Assembly (NCBI GenBank): GCA_026989495.1
Contig: JALSJE010000010.1
Location: 1 to 32,979, forward strand
Direction of reading: 5' to 3'
Source of the DNA: Gammaproteobacteria bacterium
GTDB lineage: Bacteria; Pseudomonadota; Gammaproteobacteria; S144-34
Length of the DNA stretch: 32,979 nucleotides
Shown here: in pieces, positions 9,262 through 17,523 of the stretch
Position numbering within the stretch: the first letter of the stretch is position 1
Layout: every line of letters starts with the position of its first letter
Notes under the pieces: generated by a model
What the model saw: only the letters and a program-made list of their open reading frames with translations
What the model was told of the DNA's origin: nothing
The model's database searches: none
Program-made: the position numbers and the translations under genes

Positions 9262-12200
9262 GGACGAAGCTCCTCACCGCGGAGAACGTGCTGACGGTGC
9301 CGCTCGAGGGCGTGAGCCTTGTGGAGGCGAGCGCAGGCAGCGGCAAGACCCACATGCTCGCCGCCATCGTCCTGCGGTGGCTGCTCGAGGGCCATCCGGT
9401 CGAGTCCATCCTCGCCGTGACCTTCACGCGGGCCGCGACCGAGGAGCTGCGGGGCAGGGTGCGGCGCATGACGGCCGCCTGCCTCCAGGCCTTCGACACC
9501 GGGAGACCGCCGGAGGGGGACGCGCTGCTGGCCGCGGCGCTCGAGCGCTGGTGCGGGCCGGAGCGCGGGGCCGCGGCCCGGCGGCTCGAGGCCGCCCTGG
9601 CGGCCATGGACGAGGCGCCCATCCACACCATCCACGGGTTCTGCCAGCGCCTGCTCCGCGAGCACGCGTTCGCCGCGCGGGGGGAGTTCGATCCCGAGAT
9701 CCTTGAGGACGAGAGCGAGCCGCTGCTGGCGGTGGCGCGGGATCTCTGGCGCGCCCGGGTGGCCACCCTGCCGCCGCGCGAGCTCGCCCTCGTGCGGGCC
9801 ATGTGGTCGGGGCCCGAGGACATGCTGGCCTTCGCGCGTCCCTATCTGGCGCGCGTGCCGCACGTCCGGCGCGGGAGCGTGGAGCCGGCGGCCGGGCTCG
9901 GCGAGGCGCTGGCGGCGGCGGCGCGGGAGGCGCGCAACCTCGCCGCCGGGGGGCTGGAGGGGCTGCTCGAGGCCATGGCGGCCTGGGCGAAGGGAGAGGG
10001 ACCCTACAAGGAGCCCGGGTGGCAGGACGAGGCCCTGCACACCCTCGGGGCATGGCTCGCCGGCGAGGCCGCGGGCTGGCCGCAGGCGCTCGCCGCGGTC
10101 AGCCTGCGGCGTCACGCGCGCAAGCGCGGGCCCTCGCAGGCCGGCGTGCCTGACCTCGAGGCGCTCGTCTCGCACCCCCTGCTCACGCTCGGCGACCGGG
10201 TGCTGGCCCTGGAGGCGGCCTACGGCAGGGCCTTCGCCGCCGAGGCCCTCTGCGCCCTGCGCGAGGCCTGGGCCGCCTGGCGGGCGCGGAAGGGCGTGCT
10301 TTCCCACGACGACCTGCTCACGCGCGTGCGCGACGCGCTCGCGCGCGGGGCTGGCGGCGGGCGCCTCGCCGCCGAGCTCGTCCGGCGCTGGCCGGTGGCC
10401 CTGGTGGACGAGTTCCAGGACACCGACCCCGTGCAGAGTGCGATCCTGGGAGCGCTGGCCGCGGCCGGCCAGCGCCAGGTGCTCATCGGCGATCCCAAGC
10501 AGGCCATCTACGCCTTCCGCGGCGCCGATGTCTTCGCCTACATGAAGACCTACCGCACCGTCCCGCCCGAGCGGCGCTACGGTCTGCCCCACAACTGGCG
10601 CTCGCGCCCGGCCTGCGTCGAGGCCGTGAACGCCCTCTTCGCCAGGCCCGAGGCCTTCCTCTACGACGAGATCCCCTTCCAGCCTTCCGCGCCTGCCCCG
10701 GGGCGGACGCTGCCGGCCCTGAGGCTGCCGGACGCCGACGGCGGCGAGGCCGGCCTCTGCATCTGGCGGATGCCGGAGCCCGATCCCGCGCCGAGCGGCA
10801 GGCCGCGCTATTTCTGGCCGCCGGGGGAGGCGCGCCAGTGGGCGGCCCGGTGCGTGGCGGCTCATGCGGCCGGGCTGCTTGCGGCAGCCCGTGCCGGCGG
10901 TGCGCGTATCGGCGCACGGGCCCTGCGGGGCGGCGATCTCGCCGTGCTCGTCTTCACCCACCGGCAGGCGCAGCTCGTGCGCAGGGAGCTCGGCCGCTGC
11001 GGCGTCGCCAGCGCCTATGTGGGCAGCGACTCGGTGTGGGCGACGGAGGAGGCCGAGGAGCTGGAGACGCTGCTTGCGGCGGTGGCGGCACCGGGCGACG
11101 CACGGCTGCTGCGGCGCGCGCTCGCAAGCCCCCTGCTCGGCTGGGACCTGGCGCGGCTGGCGCGCGAGCTGGGCGAGCCCGGCCGCTGGGAGCACTGGCT
11201 GGAGCGGTTCGCGCTCGCCCGCGAGCGGTGGGAGCGTCAGGGCTTCATGGCCGCCTTCCATGGCCTGATGCGGGACCTGGGCCTGCCTGCGGCCCTGGCC
11301 GGCCGCATGGGCGGCGAACGGGCCCTCACCAACCTCCTGCACCTGGCCGAGCTGGTCCAGGAAGCCGCCGGGAGCCGCCACGGCGTCGAGGACCTGCTCG
11401 CATGGTTCGTGCGCTCGCGCCGCGAGAGGCGGGGCGGTGGCGAGGCCTCGCTGCTGCGGCTCGAGAGTGACGCGGACCTGGTGCGCATCGTCACGGTCCA
11501 CCGGGCCAAGGGCCTGCAGTTCCCGATCGTGTACCTGCCTTTTCCGTGGGAGCCGCCGGCGGCTCCGCCGCCGCCGCCGGCGGCCGCGGTCTGGCACGAC
11601 GACGAGGGGACGCTGGTGCTGGATCTCGTGGAGGAGCGCCCGGGGCGGGCTGCCCGCGAGCGCCTCGCCGAGTGGGTGCGCCTGCTGTATGTGGCGCTCA
11701 CGCGGGCCGAGCTCCGCACCTATCTCCCGTGGGGACCGGTCGGCTGGCCCGCGGGCTCCGCGAGCTCGCCCTTCGCCTGGCTGGTGCACGGGCGGGATGT
11801 CACCGCGCGGGCCATCGAGGAGACGGGCGAGGCCGTCTTCCTCGACCGCACGGCCGGCGAGGAGATCGACCACGACCTCGCCGAGCTGGCCGCGCGCGCG
11901 GGGAAGGCGGCGGTGCGGGTGCTGCCTGCGCCCGAAGCGCAGGACTCCGCGGGGCCGCCGGCCCCCGTCACGCCGGCCTCGTCCGGACCTGAAGCGGCGC
12001 CGGCGGTGCAGACGCGGCCTTTCCGGGGCGCCGTCCGGCAGCATTGGCGGGTGACGAGCTATTCCCAGCTCGCGGGAGGCGGGGGCGGCGTGCGGGATCG
12101 CGACGCCGATCCGAGGCAGGCTGTGGAGGGAGAGCCCCCGCCGGCGGCGCCGGCGGACGTGCACGCCCTGCCGCGCGGGGCGCGCCTGGGCAATCTGCTC

Positions 12201-12881
12201 CACCTCCTGCTCGAGCGCCTGGGACCGCGCATCCCGGACCGGACGGCGGCGGCCGAGGCGGTCGCCCGGCTGGCACCGCGCTTCGGGCTCGAGGCCGCGC
12301 ACCATGGGCTGATCGCCGAATGGCTCGTGCGCGTCTCGACCACGCCGCTGCCGACGGGCTTCCGCCTCGCCGACCTCGCCCCCGGCCATTGGCTGACGGA
12401 GCTTCCCTTCCATTTCGGCGCCTGCGGCCTGGATCTGGAGGCGCTGGACCGGCTGCTCAGGCGCCACGGCGTGGCGCCGCTGCCGCGGCCGCTGCCGTTC
12501 GGGGCCATGACGGGCCTGTTCGCCGGACAGATCGATCTCGTCTTCCGGCACGAGGGCCGCTGGTATCTCGCCGACTACAAGACCACCTGGCTCGGGCCCG
12601 ACGCGGCAGCCTATGCGCCCGAGCGGCTCGGCGAGGCCATGCGCCGCCACCGCTACGACCTCCAGTGCCTGATCTACGCGGTGGCCCTCCACCGCTATCT
12701 GGTGCGACGGGTGCCGGAGTACCGTCCCGGGCGCGACTTCGGGGGGGCGCTCTATCTGTTTCTGCGCGGCATGGACGGTCCCGACGGGGACGGGCGTGGC
12801 GCGCACCTGGTGCAGCCCGCCCCCGCGCTGGTGGAGGCGCTGGACCGCCTGCTGCAGGGAGGGGGCTGCGATGCAGGCTGA
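9258..12881 (+). CDS. recB: RecBCD enzyme subunit RecB (exodeoxyribonuclease V beta)
   Basis: A 1207-residue UvrD-type 3'-5' helicase plus nuclease. Visible motifs: Walker A EASAGSGKTHML (about 23-34), AVTFTRAATEELRGR (motif Ia), DEFQDTDPVQ (about 384, Walker B), IGDPKQAIYAFRGAD (motif III), TVHRAKGLQFPIVYLPF (motif V region) and LYVALTRAE (motif VI). The C-terminal nuclease domain has the signature QIDLVFRHEGRWYLADYKT (about 1090-1106), with the catalytic Asp and Lys, then HRYDLQ. All catalytic landmarks are intact. The start overlaps the recC stop as ATGA and is preceded by AAGGGAAGGGG. It overlaps recD by 11 bases, so the three subunits are translationally coupled. Confidence 0.97.
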   Translation: MRTKLLTAENVLTVPLEGVSLVEASAGSGKTHMLAAIVLRWLLEGHPVESILAVTFTRAATEELRGRVRRMTAACLQAFDTGRPPEGDALLAAALERWCGPERGAAARRLEAALAAMDEAPIHTIHGFCQRLLREHAFAARGEFDPEILEDESEPLLAVARDLWRARVATLPPRELALVRAMWSGPEDMLAFARPYLARVPHVRRGSVEPAAGLGEALAAAAREARNLAAGGLEGLLEAMAAWAKGEGPYKEPGWQDEALHTLGAWLAGEAAGWPQALAAVSLRRHARKRGPSQAGVPDLEALVSHPLLTLGDRVLALEAAYGRAFAAEALCALREAWAAWRARKGVLSHDDLLTRVRDALARGAGGGRLAAELVRRWPVALVDEFQDTDPVQSAILGALAAAGQRQVLIGDPKQAIYAFRGADVFAYMKTYRTVPPERRYGLPHNWRSRPACVEAVNALFARPEAFLYDEIPFQPSAPAPGRTLPALRLPDADGGEAGLCIWRMPEPDPAPSGRPRYFWPPGEARQWAARCVAAHAAGLLAAARAGGARIGARALRGGDLAVLVFTHRQAQLVRRELGRCGVASAYVGSDSVWATEEAEELETLLAAVAAPGDARLLRRALASPLLGWDLARLARELGEPGRWEHWLERFALARERWERQGFMAAFHGLMRDLGLPAALAGRMGGERALTNLLHLAELVQEAAGSRHGVEDLLAWFVRSRRERRGGGEASLLRLESDADLVRIVTVHRAKGLQFPIVYLPFPWEPPAAPPPPPAAAVWHDDEGTLVLDLVEERPGRAARERLAEWVRLLYVALTRAELRTYLPWGPVGWPAGSASSPFAWLVHGRDVTARAIEETGEAVFLDRTAGEEIDHDLAELAARAGKAAVRVLPAPEAQDSAGPPAPVTPASSGPEAAPAVQTRPFRGAVRQHWRVTSYSQLAGGGGGVRDRDADPRQAVEGEPPPAAPADVHALPRGARLGNLLHLLLERLGPRIPDRTAAAEAVARLAPRFGLEAAHHGLIAEWLVRVSTTPLPTGFRLADLAPGHWLTELPFHFGACGLDLEALDRLLRRHGVAPLPRPLPFGAMTGLFAGQIDLVFRHEGRWYLADYKTTWLGPDAAAYAPERLGEAMRRHRYDLQCLIYAVALHRYLVRRVPEYRPGRDFGGALYLFLRGMDGPDGDGRGAHLVQPAPALVEALDRLLQGGGCDAG

Positions 12882-14673
12882 GCTCGCCCGCGCCCTGGCG
12901 CTGGGGCTGGCGCGCCCCATCGACGTGCAGTTCGCGCGCTTCTGCGCGGAACGGGCCGGCGGCGACGATCCCGATCTGGTGGCGCTGACCGCCTGTGCGC
13001 TCAGCGCGCGCACGGGCGCGGGCGACGTCTGCCTGGACCTCGCCCGCCTCGCCGGGCGGCCGCTGCTCGCGGGCGGCGAGGGCGCGAGCGCGCTGCGTCT
13101 GTGCGCCCCGCCGCTCGAGCGCTGGCTCGAGGCGCTGGGGCGCTGCCCCTGGGTGGGCCGGCCCGGGGAGCGCGCCCCCATGATCCTGGACGGCGGGCGG
13201 CTCTATCTCGGCCGCTACTGGGCCTGGGAGTCGGACGTGGCCATGGGGCTGCGCGCGCGGCTCGCGCGGGATGCGCCGGTCGATGAAGCGCGCCTGCGCC
13301 ATGGCCTGGAGCGGCTGTTCGGGCCGCTGCGCGCGGAGGGCGTGGACTGGCAGCGCGTGGCGGCCGCGCTCGCCTGCCTGCGGGATCTGGCCGTGATCAC
13401 CGGCGGCCCCGGCACCGGCAAGACCACCACCATGGTGCGCATCCTCGCGCTCATGCTCGATCAGCGGCCGGATCTGCACGTGCGGCTGCTCGCGCCCACC
13501 GGCAAGGCGGCGGCCCGCATGACCGAGGCGGTGCGCCGCGAGCTGGCGCGGCTCGAGCTGCCGGCGCCGGTGCGCGCGGGCCTGCCGACCGAGGCCGCCA
13601 CGGTGCACCGCTTCCTGCGGCCGGATCCCGAAGGACGCTTCCGGCATCACCGGGACAATCCGGTGCCCGCGGATGTGGTGGTGCTCGACGAGGCCTCGAT
13701 GGTGCCCCTGCAGCTCATGGCGCGTCTGCTCGACGCCCTGCTGCCGCGTTGCCGGCTGGTGCTGCTGGGCGATCGCGATCAGCTCGGGCCGGTCGAGGCG
13801 GGGCATGTCTTCGCCGACCTCTGCGGGGGCGGCCCCCGCCACCGCCCCGCCACCGCGGTGGCGCTGGCGCGGGTCGGCGCGGTGCCGACGCCCGCGGCGC
13901 TCGCACCCGACGCCCGTGCGCCGGAGGTCGCCGACGCCCAGGTGGGGCTCACCGAAGGGCGGCGCTTCGGTGCCACGAGCGGCATCGGGCGGCTGGCCGC
14001 GGCGGTGCGCGCGGGCGCCGGTGCGGATGCCTACGGCCTCGAGGCGCCGGATCTCGCCTGGAGCGTGTGGCTGCCGGACGGTGCGCCGCCGCCCGCGGTA
14101 GCCGAATGGCTGCGGGCGCGGCTCGCGCGGGTGCGCGAGGCGCGCAGCGCGGAGGAGGCACTGGCGCGGCTGGCCGAGGCGCGGGTGCTGTGCACGGTGC
14201 GCGAGGGGCCCGCCGGCGTGGCCGGGCTCAACGCGCTCGCCGAGCGCGTGCTGGGCGTCGAGGGCGGCGACTACCCGGGCCGCCCGGTCATCGTCACGCG
14301 CAACGACTACCTCCTCGAGCTCTACAACGGGGACACGGGCGTGCTCTGGCCCCATCCCGGCGATCCCCGCCGCCTCGCCGCCTGCTTCGAGGACGGCAAG
14401 GGCGGCATCCGGCACGTGCCGCTGCAGCAGCTGCCGGCCCACGAGACGGCCTATGCGCTGACCGTGCACCGCGCGCAGGGCTCGGAGTACGAGGAGGTTC
14501 TGCTCGTGCTGCCGGCCGAGCCCGTGCGCGTGCTCGCGCGCGAGCTGCTCTATACCGGGATCACGCGCGCCCGCAGGGGGCTGCACGTGCTGGCCTCGCG
14601 CGCGGCCTGGGAGGCCGCCTGCGCGCGTGCGGCCGAGCGCAGCTCCGGCCTCGCCGCCCGGCTCGGCTGGTGA
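12871..14673 (+). CDS. recD: RecBCD enzyme subunit RecD (exodeoxyribonuclease V alpha)
   Basis: A 600-residue SF1B 5'-3' helicase, the fast motor of RecBCD. Walker A TGGPGTGKTTT lies near residue 177, followed by LLAPTGKAAARM, VVVLDEASMVPLQLM (Walker B), LLGDRDQLGPVEAG, and the C-terminal VHRAQGSEYEEV and YTGITRAR motifs. The short N-terminal domain that contacts RecB is present, and the length is normal for the RecBCD-type protein rather than the longer RecD2. ATG 12871 overlaps the recB end by 11 bases and follows GCAGGGAGGGGG. Confidence 0.97.
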   Translation: MQAELARALALGLARPIDVQFARFCAERAGGDDPDLVALTACALSARTGAGDVCLDLARLAGRPLLAGGEGASALRLCAPPLERWLEALGRCPWVGRPGERAPMILDGGRLYLGRYWAWESDVAMGLRARLARDAPVDEARLRHGLERLFGPLRAEGVDWQRVAAALACLRDLAVITGGPGTGKTTTMVRILALMLDQRPDLHVRLLAPTGKAAARMTEAVRRELARLELPAPVRAGLPTEAATVHRFLRPDPEGRFRHHRDNPVPADVVVLDEASMVPLQLMARLLDALLPRCRLVLLGDRDQLGPVEAGHVFADLCGGGPRHRPATAVALARVGAVPTPAALAPDARAPEVADAQVGLTEGRRFGATSGIGRLAAAVRAGAGADAYGLEAPDLAWSVWLPDGAPPPAVAEWLRARLARVREARSAEEALARLAEARVLCTVREGPAGVAGLNALAERVLGVEGGDYPGRPVIVTRNDYLLELYNGDTGVLWPHPGDPRRLAACFEDGKGGIRHVPLQQLPAHETAYALTVHRAQGSEYEEVLLVLPAEPVRVLARELLYTGITRARRGLHVLASRAAWEAACARAAERSSGLAARLGW

Positions 14674-14685
14674 AGGCCTTCCCGA

Positions 14686-14719
14686 AAGGGATAGCCGCGG
14701 CCGCGCCCCTCTATCCCTT
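14686..14719 (+). other. Stem-loop after recD
   Basis: AAGGGATAG (14686-14694) pairs perfectly with CTATCCCTT (14711-14719) over a 16-base GC-rich loop. It lies 12 bases past the recD stop. No T-run follows, so it may be a 3'-end stabiliser or a weak terminator. Confidence 0.5.
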
Positions 14720-14734
14720 CCGCGCCGCACCCCA

Positions 14735-14776
14735 TTGATCTGCATCAATCCGTCCCCTGAGGGGGGAGCCTAGGCT
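14735..14776 (+). promoter_or_regulatory. FNR-type anaerobic promoter upstream of dsrA
   Basis: TTGAT-CTGC-ATCAA at 14735-14748 is a perfect FNR/ANR-type box. A -10-like TAGGCT lies at 14771-14776, which puts the start near 14783. The box centre is then at about -41.5, the exact class II activator position. No good -35 is needed in this arrangement and none is seen. The close agreement of site and spacing makes chance unlikely, but a DNR/CRP-family relative could be the real ligand. Confidence 0.75.
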
Positions 14777-14788
14777 TGCACGCGGACC

Positions 14789-14848
14789 ATGGCGAGTCTC
14801 TTTGCCTTCGCAAGCCCCGGCCGCCCCTTGGCCGGGGCGCTTTTCTGA
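14789..14848 (+). CDS. Possible leader peptide of dsrAB
   Basis: A 19-codon open frame (MASLFAFASPGRPLAGALF) starts a few bases after the predicted FNR-dependent start. Its last codons run through the terminator-like hairpin at 14814-14844. No Shine-Dalgarno is visible, and the predicted leader before the ATG is only about 6 bases. The peptide has no obvious run of a regulatory amino acid. It could be chance, so confidence is low. Confidence 0.2.
   Translation: MASLFAFASPGRPLAGALF
14814..14844 (+). terminator. Intrinsic-terminator-like hairpin in the dsrAB leader
   Basis: GCCCCGGCC (14814-14822) pairs with GGCCGGGGC (14830-14838), loop of 7, followed by GCTTTTC. It lies about 30 bases after the predicted FNR-dependent start and 58 bases before the dsrA ATG. 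It could act as an attenuator, or end a short RNA of about 60 nt. Confidence 0.7.
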
Positions 14849-14901
14849 CGAAGGCCGATTCCCGACACCCGGACACCGGACACGAGCGCGGAGGGTTCGC
14901 G

Positions 14902-16146
14902 ATGCCGAAGCCGATGCATGAGACGCCCATGCTGGACGAGCTGGAGAAGGGCCCGTGGCCGAGCTTCATCACGGGCATCAAGCGGCTCGCCCGGCGCAAG
15001 GACATGATGGTGGACCTGCTGGGCCAGCTCGAGCACTCCTACCAGACCCGCAAGGGCTACTGGAAGGGCGGCACCGTCGGCGTCATCGGCTACGGCGGCG
15101 GCGTCATCCCGCGCTTCTCCGAAGTGGCCGACGCCTTCCCGGAGTCCAGGGAGTTCCACACCATCCGCATCATGCCGGCGCCCGGCATGCACTACACCAC
15201 CGAGGTCCTGCGCAGGATCTGCGACGTCTGGGAGGAGCACGGCTCCGGCCTCATCTCCATGCATGGCCAGTCGGGCGACCTCCAGCTCCAGGGCTGCGCC
15301 ACGGACAAGGTGCAGGTGGTCTTCGACGCGCTCAACGAGATGGGCTTCGACATGGGCGGGGCGGGCCCGGCGGTGCGCACCGCCATGTCCTGCGTGGGGC
15401 CGGCGCGCTGCGAGCATGCCTGTTACGACACCGCACGCGCGCACCGCGAGGTGCTCAACGTCTTCCTCGACGACCTGCACCGGCCCGCGCTGCCGTACAA
15501 GTTCAAGTTCAAGTTCTCGGGCTGCCCCAACGACTGCATGAACGCCCTGCAGCGCGCCGACATGGCCGTGCTCGGCATCTGGCGCGACACCATCCGCATC
15601 GACCAGGAGCGGGTCAGGGAGTACGTGGCCGAGAAGGGACGCCGGCACGTGCTCGACAACGTGGTCACGCGCTGCCCCACCGGCTGCATCTCGCTCAAGG
15701 ACGACGACACGCTCGAGATCCGCGACAAGGACTGCGTGCGCTGCATGCACTGCATCAACGTCATGACCAGGGCGCTCTCGCCCGGCAAGGAGCGGGGCGT
15801 CACGGTGCTGCTCGGCGGCAAGCGCACCCTCAAGATCGGCGACCTCTTCGGCACCGTGATCGTGCCCTATCACCGCATGGAGACCGACGAGGACTTCCGC
15901 TGGCTGGTGGAGCTCGCCCAGCGCATCGTGGACTTCTGGGCCGAGAACGCGCTCGAGCACGAGCGCGTGGGCGAGACCATCGAGCGGATGGGGCTCGCCA
16001 ACTTCCTCGAGGGCATCGGCATCGAGCCCGATCCCCACATGCTCAGGCATCCGCGCACGAGCTCCTACGTGCGCACCGACGGCTGGGACGAGGCCGCCCG
16101 GCGCTGGTACGAGCGCCGGGACGCGCGTGAGCGCGCCGCGGGCTGA
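14902..16146 (+). CDS. dsrA: Dissimilatory sulfite reductase alpha subunit
   Basis: A 414-residue subunit of the siroheme/[4Fe-4S] enzyme that interconverts sulfite and a sulfide-level sulfur in the cytoplasm: reductive in sulfate/sulfite reducers, oxidative in sulfur oxidisers. The opening TPMLDELEKGPWPSFITGI is typical. Cluster cysteines near the siroheme site are C164 and C170 (CVGPARC), then C208 and C212 (CPNDC). A ferredoxin insert follows with C258 and CVRCMHC (278, 281, 284). RRVEPF-type substrate arginines were not individually assigned. ATG 14902 follows GGAGG and gives the family length. The gene lies behind the FNR-type box and 20 bases before dsrB. Oxidative versus reductive type cannot be settled by eye. 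Confidence 0.96.
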   Translation: MPKPMHETPMLDELEKGPWPSFITGIKRLARRKDMMVDLLGQLEHSYQTRKGYWKGGTVGVIGYGGGVIPRFSEVADAFPESREFHTIRIMPAPGMHYTTEVLRRICDVWEEHGSGLISMHGQSGDLQLQGCATDKVQVVFDALNEMGFDMGGAGPAVRTAMSCVGPARCEHACYDTARAHREVLNVFLDDLHRPALPYKFKFKFSGCPNDCMNALQRADMAVLGIWRDTIRIDQERVREYVAEKGRRHVLDNVVTRCPTGCISLKDDDTLEIRDKDCVRCMHCINVMTRALSPGKERGVTVLLGGKRTLKIGDLFGTVIVPYHRMETDEDFRWLVELAQRIVDFWAENALEHERVGETIERMGLANFLEGIGIEPDPHMLRHPRTSSYVRTDGWDEAARRWYERRDARERAAG

Positions 16147-16166
16147 ACGAGAGGAGGGCACAGACG

Positions 16167-17243
16167 ATGGCACAGGCACAGCCGCGCATGCCCATCGAGA
16201 GCGGGGTTCCGGACCACTTCCAGTACATGCACCCGGCGCTGCGGCGCAACTACGGCATGTGGGCCTGGCACGACCGCCCGCGGCCGGGCGTGCTGCACCA
16301 CGTCTCCGAGACCGGCGAGGAGGTGTGGACCGTGCGCGCCGGCACCCAGCGTCAGCTCGACGTGGACACCGTGCGCAAGCTCTGCGACATCGCCGACGAG
16401 TTCGCGGACGGCCACATGCGCTTCACCATCCGCAGCAACGTGGAGTTCACGGTCACGGACGAGAGCAGGGTGGAGCCGCTGATCGAGCGCCTGCAGGCGG
16501 AAGGTTTTCCCGTCGGCGGAACCGGCCCCTCGGTGTCCATGATCTCCCATACCCAGGGGTGGCTCCACTGCGACATCCCGGGCACCGATGCCTCGGGCGT
16601 GGTCAAGGCCATGATGGACGAGCTCTACGAGGAGTTCGTCAACGAGCGCATGCCCAACCGCGTCAAGATCACCACCTCCTGCTGCCAGATCAACTGCGGC
16701 GGACAGGGCGACATCGCCATCAACGTGCAGCACACCAGGCCGCCGCGCATCAACCACGACCTGGTGGCGGACGTATGCGAGCGTCCCGCGGTGGTGGCGC
16801 GCTGCCCGGTGGCGGCCATCCGTCCGGCGCTGGTGAACGGCAAGCCCTCGCTCGAGATCGACGAGCGCAAGTGCGTGTGCTGCGGCGCCTGCTACCCGCC
16901 CTGCCCGCCGATGCAGATCAACGATCCCGAGCACACCAAGCTCGCCATCTGGGTCGGCGGCAAGTTCTCCAACGCGCGCTCGCGCCCGAGCTTCCACAAG
17001 CTGGTCGCCGCGGGCATCCCCAACAACCCGCCGCGCTGGCCGGAGGCGACGGCCATCGTCAAGCGCATCCTGCGCGCCTACCAGCAGGACGCGCGCGACT
17101 GGGAGCGCATCGGCGAGTGGATCGAGCGCATCGGCTGGCCGCGCTTCTTCGAGCTGACGGGGCTGCCCTTCACGCGCTACCACATCGACAACTGGCGCGG
17201 CGCGCGCGCGAGCCTCAACGCCTCCACCCATCTGCGCTTCTAG
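16167..17243 (+). CDS. dsrB: Dissimilatory sulfite reductase beta subunit
   Basis: A 358-residue partner of DsrA in the alpha2beta2 enzyme; the catalytically active siroheme is coordinated mainly through DsrB. Visible features are RAGTQRQLDVDTVR in the N-terminal domain, FTIRSNVEFT, GWLHCDIPGTDASG (C135), TSCCQINCGGQGD (C172, C173, C177) and a ferredoxin domain with KCVCCGACYPPCPP (C236-C246). The C-terminus ends STHLRF. A GAGGAGGGC ribosome-binding site precedes ATG 16167. No dsrE, F, H or C follows. Instead a convergent gene shares the CTAG at the stop, so the transcription unit is just dsrAB. Confidence 0.96.
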   Translation: MAQAQPRMPIESGVPDHFQYMHPALRRNYGMWAWHDRPRPGVLHHVSETGEEVWTVRAGTQRQLDVDTVRKLCDIADEFADGHMRFTIRSNVEFTVTDESRVEPLIERLQAEGFPVGGTGPSVSMISHTQGWLHCDIPGTDASGVVKAMMDELYEEFVNERMPNRVKITTSCCQINCGGQGDIAINVQHTRPPRINHDLVADVCERPAVVARCPVAAIRPALVNGKPSLEIDERKCVCCGACYPPCPPMQINDPEHTKLAIWVGGKFSNARSRPSFHKLVAAGIPNNPPRWPEATAIVKRILRAYQQDARDWERIGEWIERIGWPRFFELTGLPFTRYHIDNWRGARASLNASTHLRF

Positions 17244-17488
17244 CCGTCGTGGCCGCGGCGGACGGCCGCCGCGGCCACGGCCCGCCAGTGCCTGAGAAGC
17301 CGCAGGCAGGCGCAGCGCGCCACCGGGTCGCGCACCGACGGATCGGCCGCCATCGCCTCCAGGTGGCTGACGATGGCCGCCGCGCACCAGGGCGAGCCCG
17401 TGCGGGCAAAGTGGCGCAGCAGCCGCGCCAGCGCCGGGCGCAGGTCCCGGGCCGGTTCGGGCCGCAGGGGATCGAGCACGCCATCCAT
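17240..17488 (-). CDS. Small Fur-box-controlled protein of unknown function
   Basis: An 82-residue, mostly helical, Arg/Ala-rich protein starting MDGVLDPLRPEP, with three cysteines in SPWCAAAI and VARCAC and a closing LLRHWRAV segment. I recognise no family. It ends on the same CTAG tetranucleotide as dsrB, read on the other strand. A good promoter (17495-17523) places its start exactly at this ATG, suggesting a leaderless message. A TTG six bases upstream is an alternative start. The Fur-type operator covering the -10 implies expression under iron limitation. Cysteine pattern and context hint at an iron or Fe-S link, but that is inference. Confidence 0.65.
   Translation of the reverse strand: MDGVLDPLRPEPARDLRPALARLLRHFARTGSPWCAAAIVSHLEAMAADPSVRDPVARCACLRLLRHWRAVAAAAVRRGHDG
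17248..17279. other. Perfect 14-bp hairpin between dsrB and the convergent small gene
   Basis: CGTGGCCGCGGCGG (17248-17261), loop ACGG, then the exact complement (17266-17279). It begins five bases after the dsrB stop and also encodes the tail of the opposite gene. It can fold in both transcripts and may act as a bidirectional 3'-end structure. No T-run follows on either strand. Confidence 0.6.
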
Positions 17489-17490
17489 AC

Positions 17491-17523
17491 GCAAATGATA
17501 ATCATTTGCATTCGTGGGCGCAA
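17491..17523 (-). promoter_or_regulatory. Fur-type operator over a sigma70 promoter
   Basis: A 19-bp perfect palindrome at 17491-17509 with core AATGATAATCATT, closely matching the classic Fur-box consensus. On the minus strand TTGCGC (17523-17518), a 17-base spacer and TATCAT (17500-17495) form a promoter whose -10 lies inside the palindrome, so bound repressor would block RNA polymerase. The expected start is at about 17488, the ATG of the small gene. Confidence 0.85.

Follow-up and report, generated by a model that had tools for sequence, protein, structure and literature searches.

The genes dsrAB are a standard marker of both sulfur oxidation and sulfite reduction; where a genome holds extra copies, these have hitherto been read as redundancy. 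The closest described cases are Sulfurifustis variabilis (SVA_0258-0259) and Sulfuricaulis limicola (SCL_0256-0257), for which Umezawa et al. (2016) reported a dsrAB pair outside the cluster and termed it redundancy (PMC5024460). According to a 2019 study, both DsrAB copies were detected in the proteome of thiosulfate-grown Sulfurifustis (PMC6397845). On the regulatory side, FNR and DNR share the box TTGATN4ATCAA and HcpR binds TTGACN4GTCAA (PMC1274295); due to this overlap, oxygen and NO sensing are inseparable by sequence. Among open-licence papers, no report was found of the clade of stand-alone dsrAB copies, of its promoter box or of its nir neighbourhood.

Two dsrAB copies in one genome

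The window analysed is the whole contig C10 (32,979 nucleotides) of a 2.54-Mb genome in 143 contigs that is 99.98% complete. Its recC, recB and recD genes (recD end at 14673) precede, on the same strand, a dsrA and a dsrB gene which are both complete and score above the cut-offs of the curated family models (Table 1). The unit stops right after dsrB at a convergent 82-aa ORF, the only gene found downstream; dsrEFHCMK were not found after the window dsrB. A genome search with DsrA revealed a second full-length DsrA on contig C113, 65% identical to the window protein, whose gene heads an ordered cluster continuing with dsrB, E, F, H, C, M, K, L, J, O, P and N (dsrM being assigned from position and homology to other clusters). 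The dsrEFH, dsrC, dsrL and dsrMKJOP genes of the genome all reside on C113. The gene calls therefore agree with the earlier note, which had described a dsrAB unit ending against a convergent gene with recBCD upstream, and the genome search it proposed bore out its suggestion that this dsrAB is an additional copy, separate from a full cluster at another place in the genome. A single normal dsr set without a second dsrAB, which that note had regarded as contrary to its reading, is ruled out by the DsrA on C113. An assembly chimera is likewise ruled out, as the recD-dsrAB linkage is repeated in the relative G001 and both copies occur in two single-contig genomes.

Genus, family and order of this bacterium comprise just three genomes, i.e. 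the window genome, G001 and G002. G001, of the same genus, carries a stand-alone copy behind the same recD, with a DsrA 96% identical to that of the window. In G002 the cluster copy is present; dsrAB was not found after recD, nor was a stand-alone copy found in this genome. The block 14725–17506 shows 90% DNA identity between the window and G001 compared to 73% for recD, which indicates that promoter and dsrAB behave as a single unit together with the small convergent gene. The corresponding values are dN 0.019 and dS 0.308 for dsrA and dS 0.62 for recD. The unit may either have been exchanged among relatives or be unusually constrained. The convergent ORF is conserved and forms, together with a Fur-like palindrome, the region 17240–17509 on the minus strand. 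A PADLOC run gave no match.

Table 1. Features of the stand-alone dsrAB locus (window positions unless C113 is given)
Feature	Position	Strand	Remarks
Degenerate TATCCC-N4-GGGATA palindrome, CTTCCCGAAAGGGATA	14678-14693	.	2 mismatches
Half site TATCCC of the dsr-upstream palindrome	14712-14717	+	
Perfect FNR/Dnr-type box, TTGATCTGCATCAA	14735-14748	.	motif match
-10 hexamer TAGGCT (TANNNT)	14771-14776	+	class II spacing, sequence only; predicted start near 14783
19-codon leader ORF	14789-14848	+	read from sequence; also in the G001 relative (L008)
Intrinsic-terminator-like hairpin, then GCTTTTCT (T-rich tail)	14814-14838	+	between promoter and dsrA
dsrA, stand-alone copy, oxidative type	14902-16146	+	414 aa; TIGR02064 572 bits, cut-off 393
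dsrB, stand-alone copy	16167-17243	+	358 aa; TIGR02066 531 bits, cut-off 342
Convergent 82-aa ORF closing the dsrAB unit	17240-17488	-	overlaps dsrB stop; homologue in G001 (L008) at equivalent position
Fur-like palindrome, GCAAATGATAATCATTTGC	17491-17509	.	upstream of convergent ORF; named from consensus alone
Palindrome upstream of cluster dsrA	C113:15633-15648		also at many loci in L017-L300

The -10 hexamer of the window copy begins exactly 36 nt past the start of the box, which places the box centre at -41.5. The class II FNR/Dnr promoter that the earlier note had claimed from a perfect box at this position is thus real by sequence, and it is common to relatives. Perfect TTGATNNNNATCAA sites occur six times in the 2.54-Mb genome compared to 0.03 expected from base composition and none in a reversed-pattern control. 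Two of them flank genes of the Crp/Fnr family with N-terminal cysteines, one of which adjoins a heme-copper oxidase-like gene. At L304 (G000:C73) and L175, an Fnr-type box or a stand-alone dsrAB lies next to the gene of a heme-copper oxidase-like protein (about 465 aa, Pfam COX1) that gave neither an NCBIfam match nor a PDB sequence match. The terminator-like hairpin between promoter and dsrA is overlapped by the leader ORF and is a possible attenuator.

The stand-alone clade and its promoters

From the class, 369 genomes were sampled, 116 of which contain dsrA; dsrA neighbourhoods were fetched for nearly all of these and complemented by 80 loci from a wider scan. In a FastTree phylogeny of 210 sequences, the stand-alone copies of 16 other gammaproteobacterial genomes make up one starred clade that contains no full-cluster member; three of their contigs end soon after dsrB, so that these copies are called stand-alone on account of the clade. 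This clade is supported at 99/97 in a careful tree of 50 sequences, in which the pair of the window and G001 is placed as its sister with 82/85. Constraining all 18 stand-alone copies to one clade gave a likelihood above that of the free quick tree, and the single clade was not rejected (p-AU 0.74). Based on these values, membership of the window copy is likely, not certain, and it is probably the sister of the stand-alone clade. An earlier quick tree had put the window copy beside five full-cluster sequences; this grouping was dropped, as the constrained tree has the better likelihood and the careful tree disagrees.

The members G102 and G329 are single-contig genomes, which dispels the concern over mixed assemblies. 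In most carriers there is a second dsrAB as well, usually within a full cluster, and in G285 and G008 the stand-alone copy alone was detected. Some members (L179, L190, L015) are followed by dsrC-like or dsrL genes. Residues that would be diagnostic of the stand-alone copies were looked for and not found. Two further arrangements were recorded in the sample. One genome (G213) holds two dsrABEFHCMK clusters (L183 and L184), which could be real or reflect assembly redundancy. Another (G215) contains, besides an oxidative cluster, a divergent dsrAB followed by dsrL (L186; 51% DsrA identity) which lies on a long branch near the root and is possibly of another type.

Of the 18 stand-alone copies, 11 have the strict box TTGAYN4RTCAA no more than 300 bp from dsrA, compared to 1 of 182 other dsrA genes (Fisher p about 1e-12, a nominal value as the rows are related); dinucleotide shuffles contained it in 5 of 5400 cases. 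Counted from the box start, a TANNNT hexamer begins at exactly 36 nt in 7 of the 11 boxed copies, the window included; in two more this distance is off by one. In some relatives TTGACN4GTCAA replaces the window-type box. Judged from gene position, the genomes G329 and G102 appear to be those of Sulfurifustis variabilis and Sulfuricaulis limicola, so that the former appears to have the box TTGACCTAGGTCAA and the latter the box TTGATCCAAATCAA. The sole boxed dsrA outside the stand-alone group (L187) is itself an orphan; it combines a perfect FNR-type box with a convergent hemN-like gene. Orphan dsrA genes without adjacent dsrB were also seen at L022/L171, L066/L174, L078, L195 and L278, three of the orphans being in Sedimenticola records.

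Outside the stand-alone group a different element prevails. With up to two mismatches allowed, the 16-bp palindrome TATCCC-N4-GGGATA precedes dsrA at 103 of 182 loci, compared to about 1% of shuffles. In 16 scanned genomes, most of them picked for having the site, 12 of 17 perfect palindromes precede dsrA and one precedes a dsrC/tusE-like gene, and the reversed control gave none; away from dsr genes the site is nearly absent from the scanned genomes. The palindrome is thus a candidate operator of the dsr operon. We know of no regulator identified for it; a NarX-like kinase and a NarL/LuxR-type response regulator, encoded near the dsr cluster in the window genome (L007:9659-12433, with the NarL-like regulator at 11747-12433) and in G237 (L188), are candidates. 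The idea that the TATCCC repeats are a NarL-type element special to stand-alone copies was dropped, the palindrome being a general dsr-upstream feature.

Nitrogen-oxide genes and the possible role

Both DsrAB copies of the window genome and the stand-alone clade belong to the oxidative type, far from the A. fulgidus and Desulfovibrio-type enzymes; the window DsrAB lies outside the reductive clade, which is represented in the trees by three sequences. Alignment with the structures 3mm5 and 2v4j revealed that the window DsrAB keeps the cysteines and basic residues which we take to bind siroheme and [4Fe-4S] and to line the substrate site, respectively.

In G102 and G007, a cytochrome b/Fe-S protein, a hemerythrin and a heme-copper oxidase-like protein are encoded ahead of the stand-alone dsrAB, and a NosR/NirI-like gene (nirI), nirS and heme-d1 genes follow shortly downstream. 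Between dsrAB and nirI-nirS, G102 has an insertion that includes a DNA methyltransferase-like gene. The name of nirI in G102 and those heme-d1 gene names that go beyond the PF02239 matches were assigned by reading the proteins. Cytochrome-d1-type (NirS/NirF/NirN-type) proteins are encoded in 13 of 19 genomes tested, all of them carriers or their sisters. The window genome contains NirF- and NirN-type proteins; nirS was not found in it, and the contig with these genes ends close by. Neither was narG found there; it is absent from the genus and patchy in the other genomes, and was therefore dropped as a shared feature of carriers. Of the nitrate-linked role suggested in the earlier note, the connection to nitrogen oxides is retained on account of the gene neighbourhoods, whereas nitrate itself gives way to nitrite/NO or low oxygen.

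Based on these data we consider it probable that the stand-alone dsrAB encodes a low-oxygen or denitrification isozyme of the reverse Dsr system, switched by a Crp/Fnr-family activator and using the partners of the main cluster. In this scenario, low oxygen and/or nitrite/NO would act via FNR or Dnr to turn on the stand-alone genes, whose product would oxidise DsrC-bound sulfane sulfur to sulfite, presumably together with DsrC, DsrEFH, DsrL and DsrMKJOP of the full cluster, and might thereby serve to oxidise sulfur when nitrogen oxides or oxygen traces are available. As the site motifs are kept and the window copy has no partners of its own, main-cluster partners are the most likely ones, and the recurrence of a lone copy, often with denitrification genes, suggests a form of the enzyme dedicated to low oxygen. 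Several findings count against this isozyme: a clear box is absent in 7 of the 18 stand-alone copies, the window copy adjoins recBCD and not nir genes, its genome yielded no narG, G002 has nirS yet no stand-alone copy was found in it, and the hairpin stands between promoter and dsrA. Moreover, the joint detection in the thiosulfate-grown Sulfurifustis (PMC6397845) means that the second copy is not silent there.

The latter result also favours plain redundancy, the published view of both cultured species (PMC5024460), in which a transferred extra DsrAB does the same job as the main one in all conditions, as a matter of dosage, and the box is incidental. The block shared by the window and G001, far closer than recD, is as expected of a mobile unit. 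However, box and spacing recur across a clade that is old and separate from the cluster copies, among which the box is nearly absent; we thus judge redundancy unlikely, while granting it some weight.

We regard it as doubtful that the stand-alone lineage, instead of duplicating the main DsrAB, belongs to a denitrification regulon and reduces nitrite/NO by its siroheme or links the oxidation of sulfane sulfur directly to nitrite reduction. Slightly more doubtful still is a siroheme enzyme devoted to nitrogen-oxide metabolism (nitrite/NO reduction or detoxification) outside sulfur oxidation. Siroheme sulfite reductases are able to reduce nitrite as well, and such a function fits the FNR/Dnr-type box and the two genomes in which nirI-nirS and heme-d1 genes come soon after dsrAB. 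It is, however, opposed by the fully kept DsrAB site motifs, by the lack of residues setting the group apart and by the dsrC-like or dsrL genes behind some members.

That the pair encodes a reductive enzyme for respiring sulfite anaerobically, the other role envisaged in the earlier note, is very improbable: FNR-type control would suit it and the Dsr reaction is reversible in principle, but the trees put the window DsrAB firmly among the oxidative-type enzymes, a long branch away from the reductive ones, no reductive-type partner lies alongside the window dsrAB, and the partners in the genome (EFH, L) are of the sulfur-oxidiser kind. Equally improbable is a silenced or functionless remnant in which transcription from the promoter would stop at the hairpin with its T-rich tail, a reading to which the missing copy in G002 would conform, since the genes are intact and dN is far below dS between the window and G001.

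Significance and comparison with known systems

If the isozyme reading holds true, a low-oxygen/nitrogen-oxide promoter of the stand-alone lineage would account for the retention of two enzymes by some sulfur oxidisers, and sulfur oxidation would be tied to denitrification at the transcriptional level. Stand-alone copies should then not be counted as a full pathway. As two cultured species appear to hold such a copy, the proposal is testable.

The extra dsrAB of Sulfurifustis and Sulfuricaulis resembles the window copy in being a second pair outside a full dsrABEFHCMKLJOPNR cluster, and the G329 and G102 copies fall into the stand-alone clade. The window copy differs in its lineage and its placement after recBCD, and the redundancy account, in the excerpted text, comes without promoter, clade or nir linkage (PMC5024460). 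Compared to the dsrAB heading the dsrABEFHCMKLJOPN cluster on C113, the window copy shares the oxidative type, the domains and the site motifs; in contrast, it lacks partner genes and has the FNR/Dnr-type class II promoter that is nearly absent upstream of cluster dsrA. FNR/DNR-controlled denitrification promoters share the TTGATN4ATCAA box, the class II spacing and, in some relatives, the nearby nir genes, whereas the target here is a sulfur-oxidation enzyme and the regulator a candidate (PMC1274295). Finally, the second dsrAB of Moorella and organisms with one reductive and one oxidative dsrAB likewise combine two copies of different histories in one genome (PMC10504309, PMC7596348). Where rdsrABL accompanies dsrABD, the copies differ in functional type, while those of the window genome are both oxidative.
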